Part shown: piece after piece, positions 15,412 to 43,898 of the stretch
Position numbering within the stretch: position 1 is the stretch's first letter
Layout of the letters: every line of letters begins with the position of its first letter
Assembly: GCA_019695035.1 (NCBI GenBank)
Contig: JAIBAU010000004.1
Location: forward strand, 1-64,000
Direction of reading: 5' to 3'
Length of the DNA: 64,000 nucleotides
Source: Caulobacteraceae bacterium
Lineage (GTDB): Bacteria; Pseudomonadota; Alphaproteobacteria; Caulobacterales; Caulobacteraceae
The notes under the pieces: generated by a model
What the model saw: only the letters and a program-made list of their open reading frames with translations
Told to the model about the DNA's origin: nothing
Database searches by the model: none
Program-made: the position numbers and the translations under genes

Positions 15412-16767
15412 TTATCCCGGCAGGCGGACAACAGCCCGCAGGCCGCCCATGGGGCTCTTGTCCAGGGTGACGTCGCCGCCGTGTCCGCGGGCGGCGTCCC
15501 GCGCGATGGCGAGGCCAAGGCCCACGCCCTTGAGGTTCTGGTTGCGCGCCTCGTCCAGCCGCGAGAACGGCTTGAAGGCTTCCTCCCGCTGATCCGGCGG
15601 GATGCCCGGGCCGTCGTCATCGACGCTGATCTCGAGGCCGCCGGAGGGGAGGGCGCGCGCCGTCAGTCGCACCTTGTCGGCATGGAAGGCCGCGTTCAGA
15701 GCCAGGTTCGAGACCGCGCGCCGCAGGGCGTTTGGACGGACCATGGCATGCAGGTCCTCCGGCGCTTCGACCTCGACCTCGGCTCCGGCGCGCCGGGCGT
15801 CGGCGGCGATGTCCTGGAGCAACGGCTCCACGGCGATGTCGGCCATCACCTCGCCGCCCTCGCCGCCGGCCTGCCCCCGGGCGAAGGCGAGATACTCGTC
15901 GATCATGTGCTCCATCTCGCCGAGGTCGCGCTTCATCGCATCCACCCGCTTCGACGGATCGGCCATCGCCAGTTCGAGCTTGAGCCGGGTGAGCGGCGTG
16001 CGCAGATCGTGGCTGACGGAGGCCAGCATGGTCGTGCGCTGATCGACGTAGCGGCGGATGCGCTCGCGCATGTCCAGGAAAGCGTGGGCGGCCTGCCGCA
16101 CCTCCTTGGCGCCACCGGGCTTGAACTCGTCGATCTCGACGCCGCGGCCGAACGCGTCAGCCGCCACCGCCAGGCGCTCGATCGCCCGCACCTGGTTGCG
16201 GATGAAAAGCACCGCCACGCCGGTGAGCAGGATCGTGGCGCCGGCCAGCCAGAGCACGAAGATGTGGGCCTGGCTGGCGAAGGCGCGGTCGCGCGGCGCG
16301 ATGACGCGCATGACGCCCCCGGGGACCTGGACGCGGATGTCGATCACCGCGGGGTAGCGGGTGGTGTCGAACCAGAAGGGGGCGTCGAGGGCGCCGGAGA
16401 GCGCATTCCTCAGCGTGCGGTCGTAGGCGACGAACAGGGACGCGCGCCGGCGCTTGGGCAGCGAGCGACCGGGCTGCACCACGATCGAAAGCTGCATCGA
16501 TTTCTCCGCCTGGTCGGCGAGCCGACGCACGGACTCCGGGCGCGGGTCATGCCGATAGCTGTCCACCGCCCAGGCGATGTCGCCCGCCAGGCTCTCGCTC
16601 AGGCGCGAGGTCACGGTCTGCCAGTGGGCGTCGAAGAAGACGTAGGTCACCGCCACCTGCATCAGGGCGATGGGCAGCACGATGATCAGCAGCGCTCGGC
16701 CCCACAGCGAAGTGGGCAGGCTGCGCTTCAGCCACCGCGACCACAGCTTGGGCGAGGCCCCCGGCAC
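15412..16767 (-). CDS. EnvZ-like sensor histidine kinase
   Basis: A 451-residue membrane kinase. TM1 lies near residues 24-46, a periplasmic domain of about 120 residues follows, TM2 lies near residues 175-197, then HAMP. The dimerisation/phosphoacceptor box SVSHDLRTPLTRLKLELAM has its His near residue 252. The ATPase boxes are NLALNAAFHADKV (N), DDGPGIP (G1) and KGVGLGLAI (G2). The start is GTG 16767, three bases after the stop of the response regulator it must partner. The signal is unknown; the large periplasmic loop suggests an envelope cue. Confidence 0.93.
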   Translation of the reverse strand: MPGASPKLWSRWLKRSLPTSLWGRALLIIVLPIALMQVAVTYVFFDAHWQTVTSRLSESLAGDIAWAVDSYRHDPRPESVRRLADQAEKSMQLSIVVQPGRSLPKRRRASLFVAYDRTLRNALSGALDAPFWFDTTRYPAVIDIRVQVPGGVMRVIAPRDRAFASQAHIFVLWLAGATILLTGVAVLFIRNQVRAIERLAVAADAFGRGVEIDEFKPGGAKEVRQAAHAFLDMRERIRRYVDQRTTMLASVSHDLRTPLTRLKLELAMADPSKRVDAMKRDLGEMEHMIDEYLAFARGQAGGEGGEVMADIAVEPLLQDIAADARRAGAEVEVEAPEDLHAMVRPNALRRAVSNLALNAAFHADKVRLTARALPSGGLEISVDDDGPGIPPDQREEAFKPFSRLDEARNQNLKGVGLGLAIARDAARGHGGDVTLDKSPMGGLRAVVRLPG

Positions 16768-16770
16768 GCG

Positions 16771-17460
16771 TCAGTCCGGAGCCAGCATGTAGCCCACGCC
16801 CCGCACGGTCTGCAGGTAGCGCGGGTTGCGCGGATCCGACTCGATCTTGCGGCGCAGGCGGGTGACCTGGACGTCGACGGCGCGGCCGATGCCGTCGGCG
16901 GAGTCGCGGGCCAGGTCCATGCGGTCGACCGCCGCGTGGGCGTGGTTGGCGAGCTGCTTGAGCAACTGCGCTTCGGCCTCGGTGAGGCGAACCAGGGTTC
17001 CGGCCCTGGACAGCTCGGCCCGGTCGAGGTCGAACTCGAAGGCGCCCAGGTTGACCTTGCGGGGGCCGGTCGGCTTGGGGCCGGCGCGCCGCAGCACGGC
17101 CTCTACCCGCAGCAGCAGCTCCTGCGGTTCGAACGGCTTGGCCAGGTAATCGTCGGCGCCGATGCTGAGGCCCTCGATGCGGTCCGTGGGAAGACCGCGG
17201 GCGGTCAGGATCAGGACCGGCGTCGCGCCCTGCTTGCGCACCCAACGCGTGAAGGCGAAGCCGTCCTCGCCCGGCATCATGACGTCCACCACCAGCAGGT
17301 CGAAGTCGAGCAGCTCCATCAGCCGGCGCGCCGCCGCCGCATCGGCCGCACCCGTCACCCGGAACCCATGCTTGGACAGATATTCCTTCAGAAGCTCGCG
17401 AATCCGGTCGTCGTCGTCGACCACCAGCAGGTGCCTCTGTCCCGACTCCGGCGTCACCAT
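16771..17460 (-). CDS. OmpR-family response regulator
   Basis: A 229-residue regulator, first gene of the two-component operon. The receiver domain has acidic residues in VVDDDDRI, the phosphorylated Asp59 in LLVVDVMMPGEDG, and the conserved Lys in YLAKPFEPQE. A C-terminal winged helix ends in the standard RYLQTVRGVGYMLAPD. ATG 17460 is preferred; the in-frame TTG at 17475 has no support. It is divergent from ilvE with an 85-base shared promoter region. Confidence 0.94.
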   Translation of the reverse strand: MVTPESGQRHLLVVDDDDRIRELLKEYLSKHGFRVTGAADAAAARRLMELLDFDLLVVDVMMPGEDGFAFTRWVRKQGATPVLILTARGLPTDRIEGLSIGADDYLAKPFEPQELLLRVEAVLRRAGPKPTGPRKVNLGAFEFDLDRAELSRAGTLVRLTEAEAQLLKQLANHAHAAVDRMDLARDSADGIGRAVDVQVTRLRRKIESDPRNPRYLQTVRGVGYMLAPD

Positions 17461-17487
17461 CGCGCGAGCTCCCAAGGGCGCCCGCCG

Positions 17488-37441: not shown

Positions 37442-38302
37442 TCAGGCTTTCAAGGCGCCGGCGGCTGCCGCCTTCATGCGGCTTTCGGCGTCGGCGCGCC
37501 TCGCCACATGATCGGCCAGAATGGCCGCGATGCGAGCCAGGGCCTGCACGGCCTTCAGCTTGTTTTCCGCGAGGGCTGGAAGGTGGGGTCGAACCTTGTC
37601 ATTTCGTCCGATCCCCAGGAGTTCGCTCCATGATCCCCGCCAGGCCGTGGCGGCCGGACGGACCCCGGCCAGCGCCTCCGAAAGGAAATGATCGGTGTTC
37701 TGGATCACGCGGGACAGGGGCAGCTGCTGGAGGGCGGCCAAGCGAGTGCGCTCCAGGTCCTCCAGGCGCGCACCGAGGCGTTCGGCCGCCGTCTGATCTG
37801 CCGCGCCGCGAGCCTCCGCCAGCCGGGCCCGGCCGGCGTCGAGATAGGCGTCCAGATCGAGGATCAGGGCCCGCGCCTGCTCGTGCAGGCCGTTGAGGGC
37901 GTCGGACTGGCGCCCGATCTTCTGCATTCGGGCTTCCATCTCGCCGGCTGTGCGGTCGAGTTCCGTCGCTGCAGCCTCGAAGGCGCGACGAAAGCGATGC
38001 AACCGGGCGGTACGTCCATTGAACAGGTTGTCGAGACCCCCGCGGGGCTCCAGCTCGTTGGGGTCGAGCGCCTCCAGCCGCGCCTGGACCGCCCTGAGGC
38101 GCTGAACGGCGTCCCCGAGGGGGTCGCTGCGCACCTCCACGAGGAATCGCTCCACGCCCGCCAGGACACCCTTGCGCGCCGGCTCGCCGAAGGAGGCCAG
38201 TTCTCCGGCGTTCTTCAGGTCGAGCTTGTTGCGGATGGCCGCGACGCGGGAGGCGTCCGCCGCCGGCGCGGCGATGCTGCGGCCCAAGGCCCCGACTGAC
38301 AT
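37442..38302 (-). CDS. TelA/KlaA-like toxic anion resistance family protein (short form)
   Basis: A 286-residue helical protein. Its order of motifs follows TelA-like proteins: LDLKNAGELASFGEPARKGVLAGVERFLVEVRS, ALDPNELEPRGGLDNLFNG, an Arg-rich RLHRFRRAFE segment, LDLDAYLDAGRARLAE, and RVIQNTDHFLSEALAGVRPAATAWRGSW near the end. Family members run to about 350-400 residues, so this is short. Tellurite resistance is only the historical name; the actual role of these proteins is unclear. It converges on the lipid transporter operon, 4 bases between the stops. Confidence 0.72.
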   Translation of the reverse strand: MSVGALGRSIAAPAADASRVAAIRNKLDLKNAGELASFGEPARKGVLAGVERFLVEVRSDPLGDAVQRLRAVQARLEALDPNELEPRGGLDNLFNGRTARLHRFRRAFEAAATELDRTAGEMEARMQKIGRQSDALNGLHEQARALILDLDAYLDAGRARLAEARGAADQTAAERLGARLEDLERTRLAALQQLPLSRVIQNTDHFLSEALAGVRPAATAWRGSWSELLGIGRNDKVRPHLPALAENKLKAVQALARIAAILADHVARRADAESRMKAAAAGALKA

Positions 38303-38415: not shown

Positions 38416-39075
38416 TCAGGCCGCCGTCTTCAGTGCGGGCGAGACGGTGAAGGCCGCCTCGGTCTTGGCCTCGACCTCGTCCAGCGCAACGCCTGGCGCC
38501 AGCTCGATCAGTTCGAGCCCCGAGCCGTCCTTCTTCACGTCGAAGACGCACAGGTCGGTAATGATGCGCTCGACGACGCGCGTTCCCGTGAGGGGCAGGG
38601 TGCAGGCCTTCAGCACCTTGGACTGACCATGCTTGTTGGCGTGCTCCATGACGACCACGACGCGCTTGACGCCCGCCACTAGGTCCATGGCCCCGCCCAT
38701 GCCCTTCACCAGTTTGCCCGGGATCATCCAGTTGGCGATGTCGCCGTTCTCGGCCACCTCCATGGCGCCCAGGATGGACAGATTGATGTGCCCCCCGCGG
38801 ATCATGGCGAAGCTGTCGGCGGACGAGAAATAGCTGGTCTCGTCCAGTTCGGTGATGGTCTGCTTGCCGGCGTTGATCAGGTCGGCGTCCTCCTCACCCG
38901 CGTAGGGGAAGGGACCCATGCCCAGCATGCCGTTCTCGGACTGCAGCGTGACGGTCATCCCCGCCGGGATGTAGTTGGCCACCAGCGTGGGAATGCCGAT
39001 CCCGAGGTTCACGTAGAAGCCGTCCTGAAGTTCCTTGGCGGCGCGCTCGGCGAGTTGGTCGCGAGTCCAGGGCAT
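38416..39075 (-). CDS. scoB: 3-oxoacid CoA-transferase subunit B
   Basis: A 219-residue CoA-transferase beta subunit. The active-site Glu lies in the SENGMLGMGPFPY motif, and ELDETSYFSSADSFAMIRGGHINLSILGAMEV and GAMDLVAGVKRVVVVMEH follow. The start overlaps the subunit A stop (TGATG). Succinyl-CoA:3-ketoacid transferase is the usual assignment; acetoacetate/adipate relatives cannot be excluded. Confidence 0.92.
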   Translation of the reverse strand: MPWTRDQLAERAAKELQDGFYVNLGIGIPTLVANYIPAGMTVTLQSENGMLGMGPFPYAGEEDADLINAGKQTITELDETSYFSSADSFAMIRGGHINLSILGAMEVAENGDIANWMIPGKLVKGMGGAMDLVAGVKRVVVVMEHANKHGQSKVLKACTLPLTGTRVVERIITDLCVFDVKKDGSGLELIELAPGVALDEVEAKTEAAFTVSPALKTAA

Positions 39076-39779
39076 CAGGCGTGTTCCTTCTGGCGGACGG
39101 TGCGTTGTTCGATGCGCTTTTCAAAGGTCGACTGGACGATGCGGTCGACATAGATGCCGGGCGTGTGGATTTGGTCCGCACCCAGCGACCCTACCGGCAC
39201 GATCTCCTCGACCTCGGCGATGCACACCGCGCCCGCGGTGGCCATCATCGGGTTGAAGTTGCGGGCCGTCTTGCGGAACATCAGGTTGCCGCGCGCGTCG
39301 CCCTTCCAGGCTTTCACGATCGAAAGGTCGGCCTTCAGGCCGGTTTCCATCACGTACTGGCGACCGTCGAACTCGCGCACTTCCTTGCCCTCGGCCACCA
39401 GGGTGCCGACGCCGGTGGCGGTGAAGAAGGCGGGGATGCCCGCGCCGCCCGCCCGGATGCGCTCCGCCAGGGTGCCCTGCGGGTTGAACTCAAGCTCCAG
39501 CTCGCCGGCCAGATACTGCCGCTCGAACTCCTTGTTCTCGCCGACGTAGGAGGAGACCATCTTGGCGATCTGGCGCGTCTGCAGCAGCAGTCCCAAGCCA
39601 AAGTCGTCCACGCCCGCGTTGTTCGAGATCACCGTCAGGCCCCTGGTCCCGGCGTCGCGGATCGCGAGGATCAGGTTCTCGGGGATGCCGCACAGCCCGA
39701 AGCCGCCGCTCATCACGGTCATGCCGTCGAAGAGCACGCCCTCCAGCGCCGCGCGCGCGTCGGGATAGACCTTTTGCAT
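39075..39779 (-). CDS. scoA: 3-oxoacid CoA-transferase subunit A
   Basis: A 234-residue alpha subunit: [24 protein letters not shown] carries the oxyanion/CoA glycine loop, followed by [17 protein letters not shown] and [18 protein letters not shown] 39779 ([12 protein letters not shown]) is the family-like start; the upstream extension is not used. It transfers CoA from succinyl-CoA to acetoacetate in ketone-body/PHB use together with subunit B. Confidence 0.92.
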
Positions 39780-39945
39780 CGCCTTACTCGTCTCCTTGGT
39801 GCGGGCCTGTCTCCTAGGTAAAGCCGGCCGCCAAGACAAGGCTGCGCAGCCGCCGGCGGCTTCGCAGAACGCTGTAATCAACTTGTCGGCACGAAACTAC
39901 TTCTAGATGCAATGATGGGTTTGGCTGAACGTGTTTGACGAGTAG

Positions 39946-39968
39946 GATGCGCAGCAGAGGGGCGCATC
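39946..39968. promoter_or_regulatory. Inverted repeat upstream of the phosphorelay operon
   Basis: GATGCGC and GCGCATC (7-bp arms, 9-base spacer) lie 26 bases upstream of the first phosphorelay gene in a 214-base gap. It could be an operator or a leader hairpin. No named motif is recognised and the remainder of the gap shows nothing clear. Confidence 0.35.
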
Positions 39969-39993
39969 TTGGATCGAGTATCGGAGCATCCGG

Positions 39994-40353
39994 GTGGGCA
40001 AGACTGTCTGCGTTATCGAGGACGACGAATTGGTCCGCGCCCGGTTGGGCGACATGCTGCGCGAGGATGGTCATAATGTCTTCGAGGCGGAATCGGCGGA
40101 TCGCGGCATCGACCTGATCCGGGCCGAACGCGCCGATGTGGCGGTGGTCGACATTCTCATGCCGGACCGTGATGGCCTGGAGGCGATCGGCCAGCTGCGG
40201 CGCACGCGCCCGGACCTTCGTATCATCGCCATCTCCGGCGGGGGGCGGGTCGGGCCGGACGTCTACCTCAATCTCGCAAGGCAGGTCGGGGCGGACGCCA
40301 GTCTCACCAAGCCCATCGGACAGGACGACCTGCGGGCCGCGGTCGGGGGATGA
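39994..40353 (+). CDS. Single-domain response regulator (receiver only)
   Basis: A 119-residue CheY-like receiver starting at GTG 39994. Acidic pocket EDD at 9-11, phospho-acceptor Asp53 in VVDILMPDRDG, and the conserved Lys in SLTKPIG near 105. There is no output domain, so it must work by protein contact or phosphotransfer. Its stop overlaps the hybrid kinase start (ATGA). Confidence 0.9.
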   Translation: MGKTVCVIEDDELVRARLGDMLREDGHNVFEAESADRGIDLIRAERADVAVVDILMPDRDGLEAIGQLRRTRPDLRIIAISGGGRVGPDVYLNLARQVGADASLTKPIGQDDLRAAVGG

Positions 40354-42314
40354 GCCTGCCCGCCTGGGGGCTCATCGTCGGCGGGTTGATCCCCGGCCTT
40401 GTCGCGGGAGGGGCCCTGGTCGCCCTGTTTTTGGGCCTTCGGGCCGCCCGTCGCCGCGATCTGGTCGCTGCCCTCCATTCCGAAGCGGCCCGCCATCGCG
40501 CCCTTTTCGAAGCGGCTCCCGAAGGCATCATGACCTTTGACCGGCAGGGGGTGATCACCAACGCCAACCCGGCCGCCCATCGACTCTTCGGGTTCGGCAA
40601 GGGCCGTCTGATCGGCCAGCTGGGCGCCGAGACCCTGGCTCCTCAGGACCGAGAGCGGGCGCTGCAGGCCATGCTGGACCCCGCCAATATCGCCAAGGGT
40701 GGACTGCGGACCGAGTACCGGGGACTGCACGCCAGCGGCGTCACCTTTCCTATGCAGGTCAGTCTCACCTACGCGCCGTCGGGGGAGGACTGGTTCGCCC
40801 TGGTCTTCATCCGCGACATCTCGCGTCAGCGGGACGCCGAGCGGATGAAAGACGAGTTCGTCTCCACCGTCAGCCACGAACTGCGCACGCCCCTGACCTC
40901 GATCGCCGGATCGCTCGGCCTGATCGCGGGGGGCGCGGTGGGGGTGCTGCCGGAAAAGGCCTCGCGCCTGATCGCCATCGCCCAGTCCAATTCGCAGAGG
41001 CTGGTGCGACTGATCAACGACGTTCTCGACATGGAGAAGCTGGCATCCGGCTCGCTGCCCTTCCACATGAGCGAGACGTCGCTCAGGGAAGTCGCCCAGC
41101 GGGCCATCGAGATGACGCGAGGCTACGCCGACCAGCTGGGCGTGGAGCTGGCCCTCAGCGAGCAGTCCGGGGCCTTGCCCGTCCGCGGCGACCCGGATCG
41201 CTTGATACAGGTGGTGACCAATCTCTTGTCCAACGCCGCCAAATACTCGCCGCGGGGCGAGACGGTCACGGTGGCGGTCGAGGGAGACGCCGCGACGGTG
41301 CGTCTCACCGTCAAGGACAAGGGACCCGGCGTTCCCGAGGCCTTTCGTGACCGAATTTTCTCCCGCTTTGCGCAGGCCGACAGCTCCGATGCGCGGGGGA
41401 AGAGCGGCACCGGCCTCGGCTTGTACATAGCCCGCGAGATCGCCGAGCGGCATGGAGGCCGACTCTGGTACGAAACGCCCGCCGCCGGCGGCGCGACCTT
41501 TCATCTGGAACTGCCGGCCCTGGCCGAGGATGCAGGCGGCCGCGTTTCGGCGACGGATCGGATCCTGCTGGTCGAGGACGAGCCTGCCGCAGCCGCTCTG
41601 CTCAGCGCCATCATGGAAGACAACGGTCTCAAGGTGGACGAAGCGGGGACCCTCGCCGACGCCCGGGCCTATCTGCAGAAGTACGGCCGCTACGGCGCCG
41701 TGATTCTGGACCTGCGCCTGCCGGACGGAGACGGCGTCGACCTGGCCAAGGAAATACGCGCCGACCCGGAACTGGCGCGCACCCCCATTGTCGTCGTTTC
41801 CGCCGACGCTCGCCGCGGAAAGGACCCCGAGGTCCGCATGCTGGAAGTGACCGACTGGATGGAGAAGCCGGTCGATCCGGACCGGCTGACCGAGTTGGTT
41901 CGGGCCGCGCTAGCCAGGGTCGACGCGCCGCCACGGCTGATCCTGCACATCGATGATGACCGTGATATCCGCGAGGTCGTCGCCACGGCGCTGTCGGACT
42001 GGGGCGAGGTCGTGTCCGTCGACGGGCTGGACGAGGCGCGCGAGGTGATCGCCCGCAAGCCGCCCGACCTCATCGTGCTGGACCTGGAGCTGGCGGACGG
42101 CGACGGAGCCGAACTGCTGGACGAACTGGGCTTGTGGGGCGAACCGCCGCCGGTGATCGTCTTCACCGCCCAGGACACGACGCGTGACCTTGGCGCACCG
42201 GTCGCGCAGGTTCTGATCAAGTCCCGCACTCCGCTGCAGGACCTGGTCGCGGCGGTCAGCAGTCAGCTTGCTCCGCCTGAGCGCGCATCGCCGACGCGCG
42301 GGGAGGGGACATGA
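40350..42314 (+). CDS. PAS hybrid histidine kinase with two receiver domains
   Basis: A 654-residue kinase. An N-terminal membrane helix (about 5-28) precedes a PAS domain (about 45-160), a HisKA box STVSHELRTPLTSIAG with His176, a HATPase domain (about 285-395) with NLLSNAAKYSPRGE, DKGPGVP and GTGLGLYI, then two receivers: REC1 (about 407-520, LLVEDEP, VILDLRLPDGDG) and REC2 (about 528-645, HIDDDRD, IVLDLELADGDG). A near-absent sensory exterior suggests a cytosolic or redox/ligand signal through PAS. It overlaps genes on both sides by 4 bases. Confidence 0.93.
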   Translation: MSLPAWGLIVGGLIPGLVAGGALVALFLGLRAARRRDLVAALHSEAARHRALFEAAPEGIMTFDRQGVITNANPAAHRLFGFGKGRLIGQLGAETLAPQDRERALQAMLDPANIAKGGLRTEYRGLHASGVTFPMQVSLTYAPSGEDWFALVFIRDISRQRDAERMKDEFVSTVSHELRTPLTSIAGSLGLIAGGAVGVLPEKASRLIAIAQSNSQRLVRLINDVLDMEKLASGSLPFHMSETSLREVAQRAIEMTRGYADQLGVELALSEQSGALPVRGDPDRLIQVVTNLLSNAAKYSPRGETVTVAVEGDAATVRLTVKDKGPGVPEAFRDRIFSRFAQADSSDARGKSGTGLGLYIAREIAERHGGRLWYETPAAGGATFHLELPALAEDAGGRVSATDRILLVEDEPAAAALLSAIMEDNGLKVDEAGTLADARAYLQKYGRYGAVILDLRLPDGDGVDLAKEIRADPELARTPIVVVSADARRGKDPEVRMLEVTDWMEKPVDPDRLTELVRAALARVDAPPRLILHIDDDRDIREVVATALSDWGEVVSVDGLDEAREVIARKPPDLIVLDLELADGDGAELLDELGLWGEPPPVIVFTAQDTTRDLGAPVAQVLIKSRTPLQDLVAAVSSQLAPPERASPTRGEGT

Positions 42315-42691
42315 GTGTGCTGAAGGTCCTCTATGTCGACGACGAACCGGACATCCGCGAAGTCGCGGCCATGGCGCTTGAACTGGACGGCTCCATAGAG
42401 GCGCGGCAGGCGGGCTCGGGCCGCGAAGCCATGCAGATTCTCGACGAGGGGTTCGATCCGGACGCCGTCCTGCTGGACGTGATGATGCCGGGCAAGGACG
42501 GACCGGCCGTCCTGGCGGAACTGCGGTCGCGGGGATTTCGTCGCCCCGTCATTTTCATCACCGCACGCGCCCAGGCTCACGAACTGGCGCACTACCTGGC
42601 CATCGGCGCGGCGGGGGTGATCACCAAGCCGTTCGATCCCATGACCCTGGCGTTGGAACTGCGCGCCGTCCTCGCACGGGCGGGGCGATGA
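42311..42691 (+). CDS. Single-domain response regulator (second)
   Basis: A 126-residue receiver: acidic pocket DDE at 10-12, Asp56 in VLLDVMMPGKDG, Thr/Ala switch in FITARAQ and Lys in VITKPFDP. No output domain. It starts ATG 42311 behind GGGAGGGG and its end overlaps the Hpt gene (ATGA at 42688-42691). Confidence 0.9.
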   Translation: MSVLKVLYVDDEPDIREVAAMALELDGSIEARQAGSGREAMQILDEGFDPDAVLLDVMMPGKDGPAVLAELRSRGFRRPVIFITARAQAHELAHYLAIGAAGVITKPFDPMTLALELRAVLARAGR

Positions 42692-42981
42692 GCGGGTTCG
42701 ACGAGCGCTACCAGGCCCTGCGCACCCGCTTCGTCGAGCGCTCACGGGCGGACCTTCCGGTGCTGCTCGCAGCGGCGGCGGAGCCCGCAGGTGATGTCCC
42801 CGCGCTGCGCATGGTGGTGCATCGTATGAGCGGGGCCGCCGGGACCTTCGGATTTCCCGAGATCAGTCGGCTGGCCGGCGAGGTCGACGACCAGTTGATC
42901 GAGACCGGTAGAGTGGACCTTGACGTACTGCTCGCCCTGACGCGAGCCGTCGAAGGCCTGACTTCGGGCGGCCAGATCTAG
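42688..42981 (+). CDS. Histidine phosphotransfer (Hpt) domain protein
   Basis: A 97-residue helical protein. The HPt signature HRMSGAAGTFGF carries the phosphorylatable His45, followed by EISRLAGEVDDQLIETG. With the hybrid kinase and the receiver proteins it completes a His-Asp-His-Asp chain. Its stop shares CTAG with the convergent outer-membrane protein. Confidence 0.88.
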   Translation: MSGFDERYQALRTRFVERSRADLPVLLAAAAEPAGDVPALRMVVHRMSGAAGTFGFPEISRLAGEVDDQLIETGRVDLDVLLALTRAVEGLTSGGQI

Positions 42982-43790
42982 AACCGCTTCGCGACCCCCA
43001 CGCCCAAAGCCACGTCGGGGGTGTCCTCATTCAGCCCGAAATCGACGCCGACGTCGAATTGGAGGTCATGGAGGGAGGCCGGCGTCCACATCAGCTGCAC
43101 CCCTGCCGAAGCTTGGGTCAGGGTCTTTGAGGGGTCATCGTCGCGCTGGACCCACAGTTCACCCGCCAGGGTGAGCTCGCCAAGGCCGTGCTCGATCCCC
43201 ACCACCCCGGACCAGGCCGAGTGGTGTCCGCCTCCTCCGGCGTCGCCGACCCAGTCCCATTCGACCATTCCAGTCAGCGCCGCCTCCTCGGTCAGCTCGA
43301 AGGAGACGGGCAGCATGAGCGAGCCTTCCCAGACACCGGCGCCGATTCCGTCGGCGCCGGTCGGGGCGGTCACGATCATCTGGAGCGCGACGGAGGCGCC
43401 CGATCCATCCGGGTTCAGCAGATTCTGGCGCAGGGAGACGCCAAGGTCGCCGCTGCCGCGGCTGTCGTCGGTCAGGCCGCCGACCGTCTCGCGGGCGACC
43501 GTATACGGCGTCCAGAGGATTTGACCCTCCAGGCTGTCGGTCAAGCCAAGCCGAAGCGTCATGGCCCCGTAGCCGAACTCCTCCGCCTCGACGCCAGCCT
43601 GGTCGAAATGACTGTAATCGAACCCGGCCTCAGCCTGGAACACCCCCGGATCAAGAGTGCAGGTTGGTGATCCCTTGCCCGGCCGGTCGGCGCAGAACGG
43701 GCGCTGACCGCTTTCCTGGGCCGATGCGGGCGACGCAATGAGCCCCGCCAGGAGGCACGCAGCCGCCAGCCGCGAAATGGTTCTTGTCAC
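42978..43790 (-). CDS. Outer-membrane transporter-like protein (Phenol_MetA_deg type)
   Basis: A 270-residue exported beta-rich protein. GTG 43790 gives a clean signal peptide (TRTISRLAAACLLAGLIASPASA). The mature chain begins with two Cys in a short disulfide-like loop (PFCADRPGKGSPTCTLD), then alternating beta-strands ending in a C-terminal aromatic (VAKRF), typical of outer-membrane barrels. The family name comes from a phenol degradation locus; the actual cargo is unknown. Confidence 0.75.
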   Translation of the reverse strand: MTRTISRLAAACLLAGLIASPASAQESGQRPFCADRPGKGSPTCTLDPGVFQAEAGFDYSHFDQAGVEAEEFGYGAMTLRLGLTDSLEGQILWTPYTVARETVGGLTDDSRGSGDLGVSLRQNLLNPDGSGASVALQMIVTAPTGADGIGAGVWEGSLMLPVSFELTEEAALTGMVEWDWVGDAGGGGHHSAWSGVVGIEHGLGELTLAGELWVQRDDDPSKTLTQASAGVQLMWTPASLHDLQFDVGVDFGLNEDTPDVALGVGVAKRF

Positions 43791-43898
43791 CGGCTCACCC
43801 CCGACGCTGAGGCTGCCGTTATGGAGGCGCCGACGGGCCTGGCGCCAGAACCGATACGCCACATCCGTTGGATTCTCCGCCGCCGGAGCAGCGGTGGC

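Follow-up and report, generated by a model that had tools for sequence, protein, structure and literature searches.

A four-gene Caulobacteraceae phosphorelay operon without an encoded output domain, and the changing outputs of its relatives

Where does a phosphorelay deliver its signal when none of its genes encodes an output domain? This question is raised by an operon in a Caulobacteraceae bacterium (GenBank assembly GCA_019695035.1), located in the first 64,000 nucleotides of contig JAIBAU010000004.1, the stretch analysed here and referred to as the window. We identified four plus-strand open reading frames (39994-40353, 40350-42314, 42311-42691 and 42688-42981), and the Pfam domains of their products are, in this order, Response_reg (REC1); PAS, HisKA, HATPase_c and two Response_reg domains (a hybrid histidine kinase with receivers REC2 and REC3); Response_reg (REC4); and Hpt. 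All three junctions between the genes read ATGA, a 4-base overlap, so that open reading frames, domains and junctions agree with the original prediction of overlapping REC, PAS-HK-REC-REC, REC and Hpt genes. Its second claim, that no DNA-binding or enzymatic output is encoded among the four, is borne out by Pfam, which detects no such domain in the relay proteins. A terminal regulator with an output domain, a usual although not a required member of such an operon (CpdR-type ends exist), is thus missing from this one. Receiver-only proteins are common, and to our knowledge the targets of few of them are known.

The best reading of the locus, to which we assign a probability of about 0.47, is a self-contained multi-step phosphorelay in which REC1 would be the end point, acting through protein contact, and REC4 a relay or sink. 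An output gene sharing the relay transcript was considered and rejected. The gene upstream of REC1 encodes a coenzyme A (CoA)-transferase (39075-39881) and the downstream gene a PF13557 protein (42978-43862), tail to tail with the Hpt gene; because both lie on the minus strand, no plus-strand gene adjoins the four-gene unit, which largely settles the concern that a longer transcript might include an output gene. The 4-base overlaps themselves are ordinary and a weak sign of special coupling, since 12 of the 42 same-strand junctions in the window share them (genes called with a simple caller based on third-position GC, GC3).

The kinase (654 aa, 40350-42314), delimited by Pfam, alignment, residues, a CHASE3 scan and hydropathy, unites HisKA, HATPase_c and C-terminal receivers in one protein: a single N-terminal transmembrane (TM) helix is followed by PAS, HisKA with H176, HATPase_c, REC2 with D454 and REC3 with D578. 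The HisKA domain, which provides dimerization and histidine phosphotransfer (DHp), spans 40845-41051. REC2 (41562-41900) keeps E409, D410, D454, S484 and K506, with Lys-Pro at the active-site Lys and Trp three residues before it (position K-3), and the matched part of REC3 (41940-42188) has Lys-Ser in place of Lys-Pro. The letters DDR in REC3 belong to the acid pocket of this receiver rather than to the linker. A ShkA-like pseudo-receiver identity was rejected for both REC2 and REC3, as each retains its phospho-acceptor Asp.

The same residues recur in a set of 38 related kinases of the family (three further ones that are short or partial, L210-L212, were tallied with the class rows introduced below). 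The HisKA His and the REC3 Asp are present in 38/38, and the REC2 Asp in all 37 aligned kinases, with one gap; at the second acid position of REC2, 34 kinases have Asp, two have Ser and one has Asn. Trp at K-3 of REC2 is found in 37/37 aligned family rows and 26/26 aligned other rows, and Lys-Ser in REC3 in 38/38 family rows and 23/25 other rows. REC4 (126 aa, 42311-42691; Pfam and residue alignment) has D56, T84, K106 and Val at K-3, and this Val, the Asp, the Thr and Lys-Pro are invariant in 56 of 56 rows. The Hpt protein (97 aa, 42688-42981; Pfam Hpt, 8.3e-11) carries a likely phospho-accepting His, H45, within VHRMSGAAGTFGF, aligned in nine sequences. The genome (G000) has just one other PF01627 match, in a 120-aa frame at G000:C35:10431-10793 (L056). 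REC1 (119 aa, 39994-40353), defined by Pfam Response_reg, three co-operonic orthologues and a tree, reads D53 as phospho-acceptor, S81 and K106, with S103 rather than an aromatic residue at K-3. Its β4 site reads AISGGGRVG, and identity with the FATGUY receivers was therefore rejected.

Is the linkage of these genes more than chance? Three other genomes (L003 in G008, L050 in G024 and L051 in G003) have the same four-gene order and the same flanks, a CoA-transferase gene next to REC1 and, a few genes past Hpt, folD; this shared order and neighbourhood argues that it is. Compared by domain with L003/L050/L051, the best kept parts of the window system are HisKA (87/84/84% identity) and REC1 (84/81/81%), followed by HATPase (79/66/66%), REC4 (65/69/71%), REC2 (67/62/61%), REC3 (59/59/59%) and Hpt (46/45/45%), and the least kept are PAS (37/43/43%) and the N-terminal segment of the kinase (24-27%).

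The wider family shows what becomes of the output. Among 299 family genomes, drawn from a larger group, we found 41 further kinase loci in 40 genomes (E<=1e-75), and among 385 class genomes 27 further matches in 19 genomes (E<=1e-80), of which 26 loci were fetched. Genes of these relatives were called with a simple GC3 caller and home-made hidden Markov model (HMM) profiles, so absences, above all of Hpt, are soft. Of the 41 family loci, 38 have REC4 after the kinase and 29 have a detected Hpt; REC1 is near in nine, a LuxR-type regulator in four, both in one (L117) and neither in 29. The corresponding counts at the 26 class loci are 18 for REC4, 11 for an Hpt domain, one for a REC1-like receiver and none for a LuxR-type regulator, leaving 25 with neither REC1 nor LuxR-type near the kinase. 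Of the partners of these kinases, REC4 is the most constant. Three loci of genus g22 (L196, L202 and L206) have orthologous CHASE3-PAS-kinase-REC-REC proteins, and the fetched stretches contain no REC4 or Hpt.

Where an output is visible, it varies. A LuxR-type regulator (Response_reg and GerE) directly precedes the kinase on its strand in L052 and L209, the place that REC1 occupies in the window, and lies downstream of the kinase on the other strand in L117 and L182. In five class loci (L226, L229, L232, L235 and L238), the gene after REC4 encodes a single Hpt, Response_reg and GGDEF protein (the Hpt match in L235, 22.1 bits, is below the Pfam cut-off of 24.6), and L215, L231 and L233 encode Hpt-REC or Hpt-REC-REC proteins without GGDEF, that of L215 reaching almost to the end of its contig. 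In L052, the LuxR-type gene has a divergent neighbour, a 153-aa frame (L052:12682-13143) with the Hpt-motif-like HRMIGLAGILGF and no Pfam match. Relatives of the relay are therefore seen with a diguanylate cyclase, a transcription regulator, a bare receiver or nothing visible nearby. The original prediction of a relay gene set without output stands as a description of the window; since the same core has a LuxR-type or fused Hpt-REC-GGDEF protein elsewhere, the lack of an output is better seen as one state of a variable set.

REC1 recurs with the module in more than one arrangement. In a tree of 36 rows, one branch (87/79) groups the window REC1 with eight operon-linked ones (G003, G008, G024, G110, G227, G281, G311 and G314), and the REC1 of L077 (G155), a long row, joins this group at 98/90; the REC1 of G227 stops short of the other rows. 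At K-3, the residue is Ser, Thr, Ala or His in the operon-linked sequences and in L077. In five loci of genus g3 (L117, L118, L119, L120 and L123), REC1 is divergent from the kinase, as is a weaker REC1 in L193. In G155 (L125), REC1 stands beside REC4 and Hpt, and the neighbouring kinase is a different one, MASE1-PAS, with no Pfam receiver. Three gene arrangements thus combine REC1 with REC4 and Hpt, and one of these includes another kinase. The MASE1-PAS kinase of L125 (5609-11549) is surrounded by REC4, Hpt, REC1 and an additional receiver of 131 aa; as this kinase has no Pfam receiver of its own, a free receiver would presumably feed Hpt there. Among the best 60 matches, sequence searches of the PDB gave only generic receivers.

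Has REC1 simply taken the place of the LuxR-type regulator? A search of 14 genomes with an alignment of four LuxR-type proteins (E<=1e-20) gave matches in 11 and none in G000, G003 and G008; G024 has one weak match (77 bits). That particular output is thus not simply elsewhere in the window genome. As for the prediction that the output lies elsewhere or consists of protein-protein control, its first half fails for the LuxR-type regulator of the relatives at this threshold and leaves room for other distant regulators. A plain replacement was rejected as well, because REC1 and LuxR-type proteins coexist in G281 (379 bits), G314, G311, G227 and G110.

In the proposed relay, the steps and roles of which we infer from sequence, the PAS domain would sense a cytoplasmic or membrane-linked cue and the kinase would autophosphorylate on H176. 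D454 and/or D578 in the kinase's receivers would next take the phosphoryl group, H45 of Hpt would follow, and D53 of REC1 and D56 of REC4 would receive it from there. Having no output domain, REC1 would act by binding a target protein, the existence of which is likewise presumed, in a phosphorylation-dependent manner. REC1 is the likelier terminal element because it occupies the place of the LuxR-type regulator of two relatives (L052 and L209); REC4, which accompanies most kinases of the family regardless of the other neighbours, would more probably be a common relay or sink receiver and set the flux.

Several observations weigh against REC1 as the end point. The branch that unites the operon-linked REC1 proteins is not starred, and the placement of L077 is unsure. 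Receivers of this type are not confined to the relay, since REC1-like receivers (E<=1e-20) occur in 36/299 family genomes, many at 38-48% identity and by other kinases or alone. L117 (G281) has REC1 and the LuxR-type regulator side by side, and four further genomes with linked REC1 hold LuxR-type relatives elsewhere (G314, G311, G227 and G110, with 340, 191, 173 and 179 bits, respectively). The 29 family loci with neither gene nearby point the same way. Furthermore, the missing aromatic residue at K-3, which speaks against classical coupling of phosphorylation to the 4-5-5 face (PMC9981736), is also compatible with a passive relay or sink; because REC1, REC3 and REC4 all lack it, this does not decide which of them is terminal.

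Much of this would fit a different route, from Hpt to a distant DNA-binding or GGDEF response regulator encoded elsewhere, with REC1 and REC4 as shuttles or sinks like MrrA or LovR, and we regard such a route as a real possibility, at somewhat better than one in three. With 55 receiver matches in the genome, four of them in this operon, candidates are many; the Hpt-REC-GGDEF proteins of the five class loci favour it, as do the loci with neither REC1 nor LuxR-type protein nearby (29/41 in the family and 25/26 in the class), the LuxR-type relatives elsewhere in several REC1-bearing genomes and the missing aromatic switch residue of both REC1 and REC4. In Caulobacter, receiver-only proteins are on record as sinks and shuttles (PMC5964349). 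However, the LuxR-type regulator of the relatives is unmatched in G000 at E<=1e-20, REC1 is better conserved in the co-operonic group than all compared domains except HisKA, and this conservation, together with the link to the module in three gene arrangements, exceeds what would be expected of a dispensable sink.

The joint conservation of REC1 and HisKA in the co-operonic relatives also invites the thought that the two proteins touch, REC1 or REC4 feeding back on its own kinase and the operon forming an autoregulated module. Rhodobacter offers a precedent in a receiver-like protein that acts on the transmitter domain of a hybrid kinase and so inhibits it (PMC9430884). Yet in the five g3 loci HisKA is 75-80% identical and REC1 47-50%, so that the two do not change in step, and in G155 REC1 stands beside an unrelated kinase; we regard such feedback as unlikely.

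The input side of the relay is unusual as well. CHASE3, in the family kinases lying before the second TM helix, was detected in 38/38 family kinases of the set and is absent from the window kinase (profile from four kinases; Pfam agrees), which therefore lacks the N-terminal arrangement of CHASE3 between two TM helices. The single predicted helix of the window kinase (about residues 8-30; 40371-40439, by hydropathy and alignment) aligns with the second TM helix of CHASE3-bearing orthologues, and CHASE3 would precede it; the protein has 654 aa against about 830 in family kinases, and with the L003 kinase as query the alignment to the window begins only at its residue 202. Outside the family set, CHASE3 is present in nine of 29 rows, which comprise L210-L212 and 26 class loci, so other inputs occur in more distant kinases. 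An intact reading frame that begins at ATGA favours a genuine in-frame loss, although an assembly fault may be the cause, and the genus is represented by one genome. A decaying operon, with CHASE3 and an output gene missing because the signal no longer matters in this lineage, would account for the absence and for the low identity of PAS (37-43%); four open frames, retained catalytic residues, intact overlaps and strongly conserved HisKA and REC1 make it very improbable.

We put forward, tentatively, a more general view. An alphaproteobacterial relay chassis (Trp-type REC2, Lys-Ser-type REC3, Val-type REC4 and often Hpt) may keep its core and swap its output among a diguanylate cyclase, a LuxR-type regulator and a bare receiver; in this lineage, the CHASE3 input would be gone and the output would be a bare receiver contacting a conserved target protein. 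The parts of the relay are of known kinds; its unusual features are an output that changes or is missing around a conserved core and, in this genome, the absent CHASE3 input. Because the one core occurs with GGDEF, LuxR-type or receiver-only partners, natural controls are available for comparing targets and roles, and the comparison suggests REC4 as the constant receiver and REC1 as the changing end point. The residues by the active-site Lys (Trp in REC2, Lys-Ser in REC3 and Val in REC4) give a sequence handle on these roles. The finding is, in our view, modestly interesting.

Around the operon, the likely promoter region is the divergent stretch before REC1 (39780-39993), read from the sequence and aligned with three relatives; its left bound presumes an internal ATG start for the CoA-transferase, as the listed frame extends to 39881. 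A promoter scan gave one sigma-70-like match (40049-40077), inside REC1, against 0.1 expected from shuffles, and a terminator scan gave one terminator-like match against 1.3 expected. The PF13557 protein of the window has no relative in L003, L050 or L051 by blastp of the fetched stretches, and it was therefore set aside as a relay member. Both L219 (3966-4763) and L225 (4123-4935), which belong to a different bacterial family, carry a PF13557 gene on the strand of REC4, beginning 7-9 bases past it; blastp added no further relative among the fetched loci. A TelA-family protein is encoded just past the CoA-transferase genes (37442-38302, minus strand); L003 and L050 also have a relative of it close to the operon, and L051 has an incomplete one at its contig edge. 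Elsewhere in the window (15412-17475, minus strand), an ordinary HAMP-type histidine kinase and an OmpR-type regulator form a pair.

How does this operon compare with known systems? No account of it was found in the literature, as judged from titles and the starts of abstracts, and one may still be in print; the comparisons below draw on parts of the cited papers. Receiver-only proteins act as contact regulators, shuttles and sinks (PMC5964349, PMC9981736). MrrA and SdrG resemble REC1 as receiver-only proteins of alphaproteobacterial phosphorelays without the full Y-T coupling pair (PMC5964349), and REC1 shares the missing aromatic residue at K-3; the FATGUY motif, however, is named for MrrA/SdrG-type receivers (PMC9981736, PMC5964349), whereas REC1 has ISGGGR after β4. 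In addition, MrrA is a hub on which six or more kinases converge (PMC5964349), whereas REC1 is encoded in the operon of one relay. Osp, a receiver-only protein acting by contact as proposed for REC1, inhibits the kinase CckA, an action not known for REC1 or REC4 (PMC9430884).

Among whole relays, HmrABCX of C. crescentus, tied to cyclic di-GMP (c-di-GMP), is likewise a Caulobacteraceae system with a hybrid kinase and putative Hpt proteins and with its final regulator not identified; judged by the description, which has no receiver-only genes, HmrB, an atypical Hpt without HxxKG, and the membrane protein HmrC set it apart from this operon (PMC11481889). ShkA-ShpA-TacA of Caulobacter shares two C-terminal receivers on the kinase followed by a phosphotransferase; ShkA has a pseudo-receiver (PMC7010744), whereas both kinase receivers in the window keep the phospho-acceptor Asp, and the TacA-like output has no counterpart here. 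A separate CckA is encoded in G000, with 1031 bits to NCBIfam HisKinCckACaul (cut-off 1000, passed by 1/14 control genomes, presumably that of Caulobacter vibrioides; G000 comprises 2.9 Mb in 64 contigs), a match that makes membership of Caulobacterales most likely for this genome. Compared with the CckA relay, the operon has an Hpt-domain protein rather than ChpT, two kinase receivers and receiver-only genes within the operon. Nevertheless, CckA-ChpT-CtrA/CpdR offers a parallel for the relay proposed here, with a hybrid kinase, a phosphotransferase and, in CpdR, a receiver-only end point that works by complex formation (PMC9981736).

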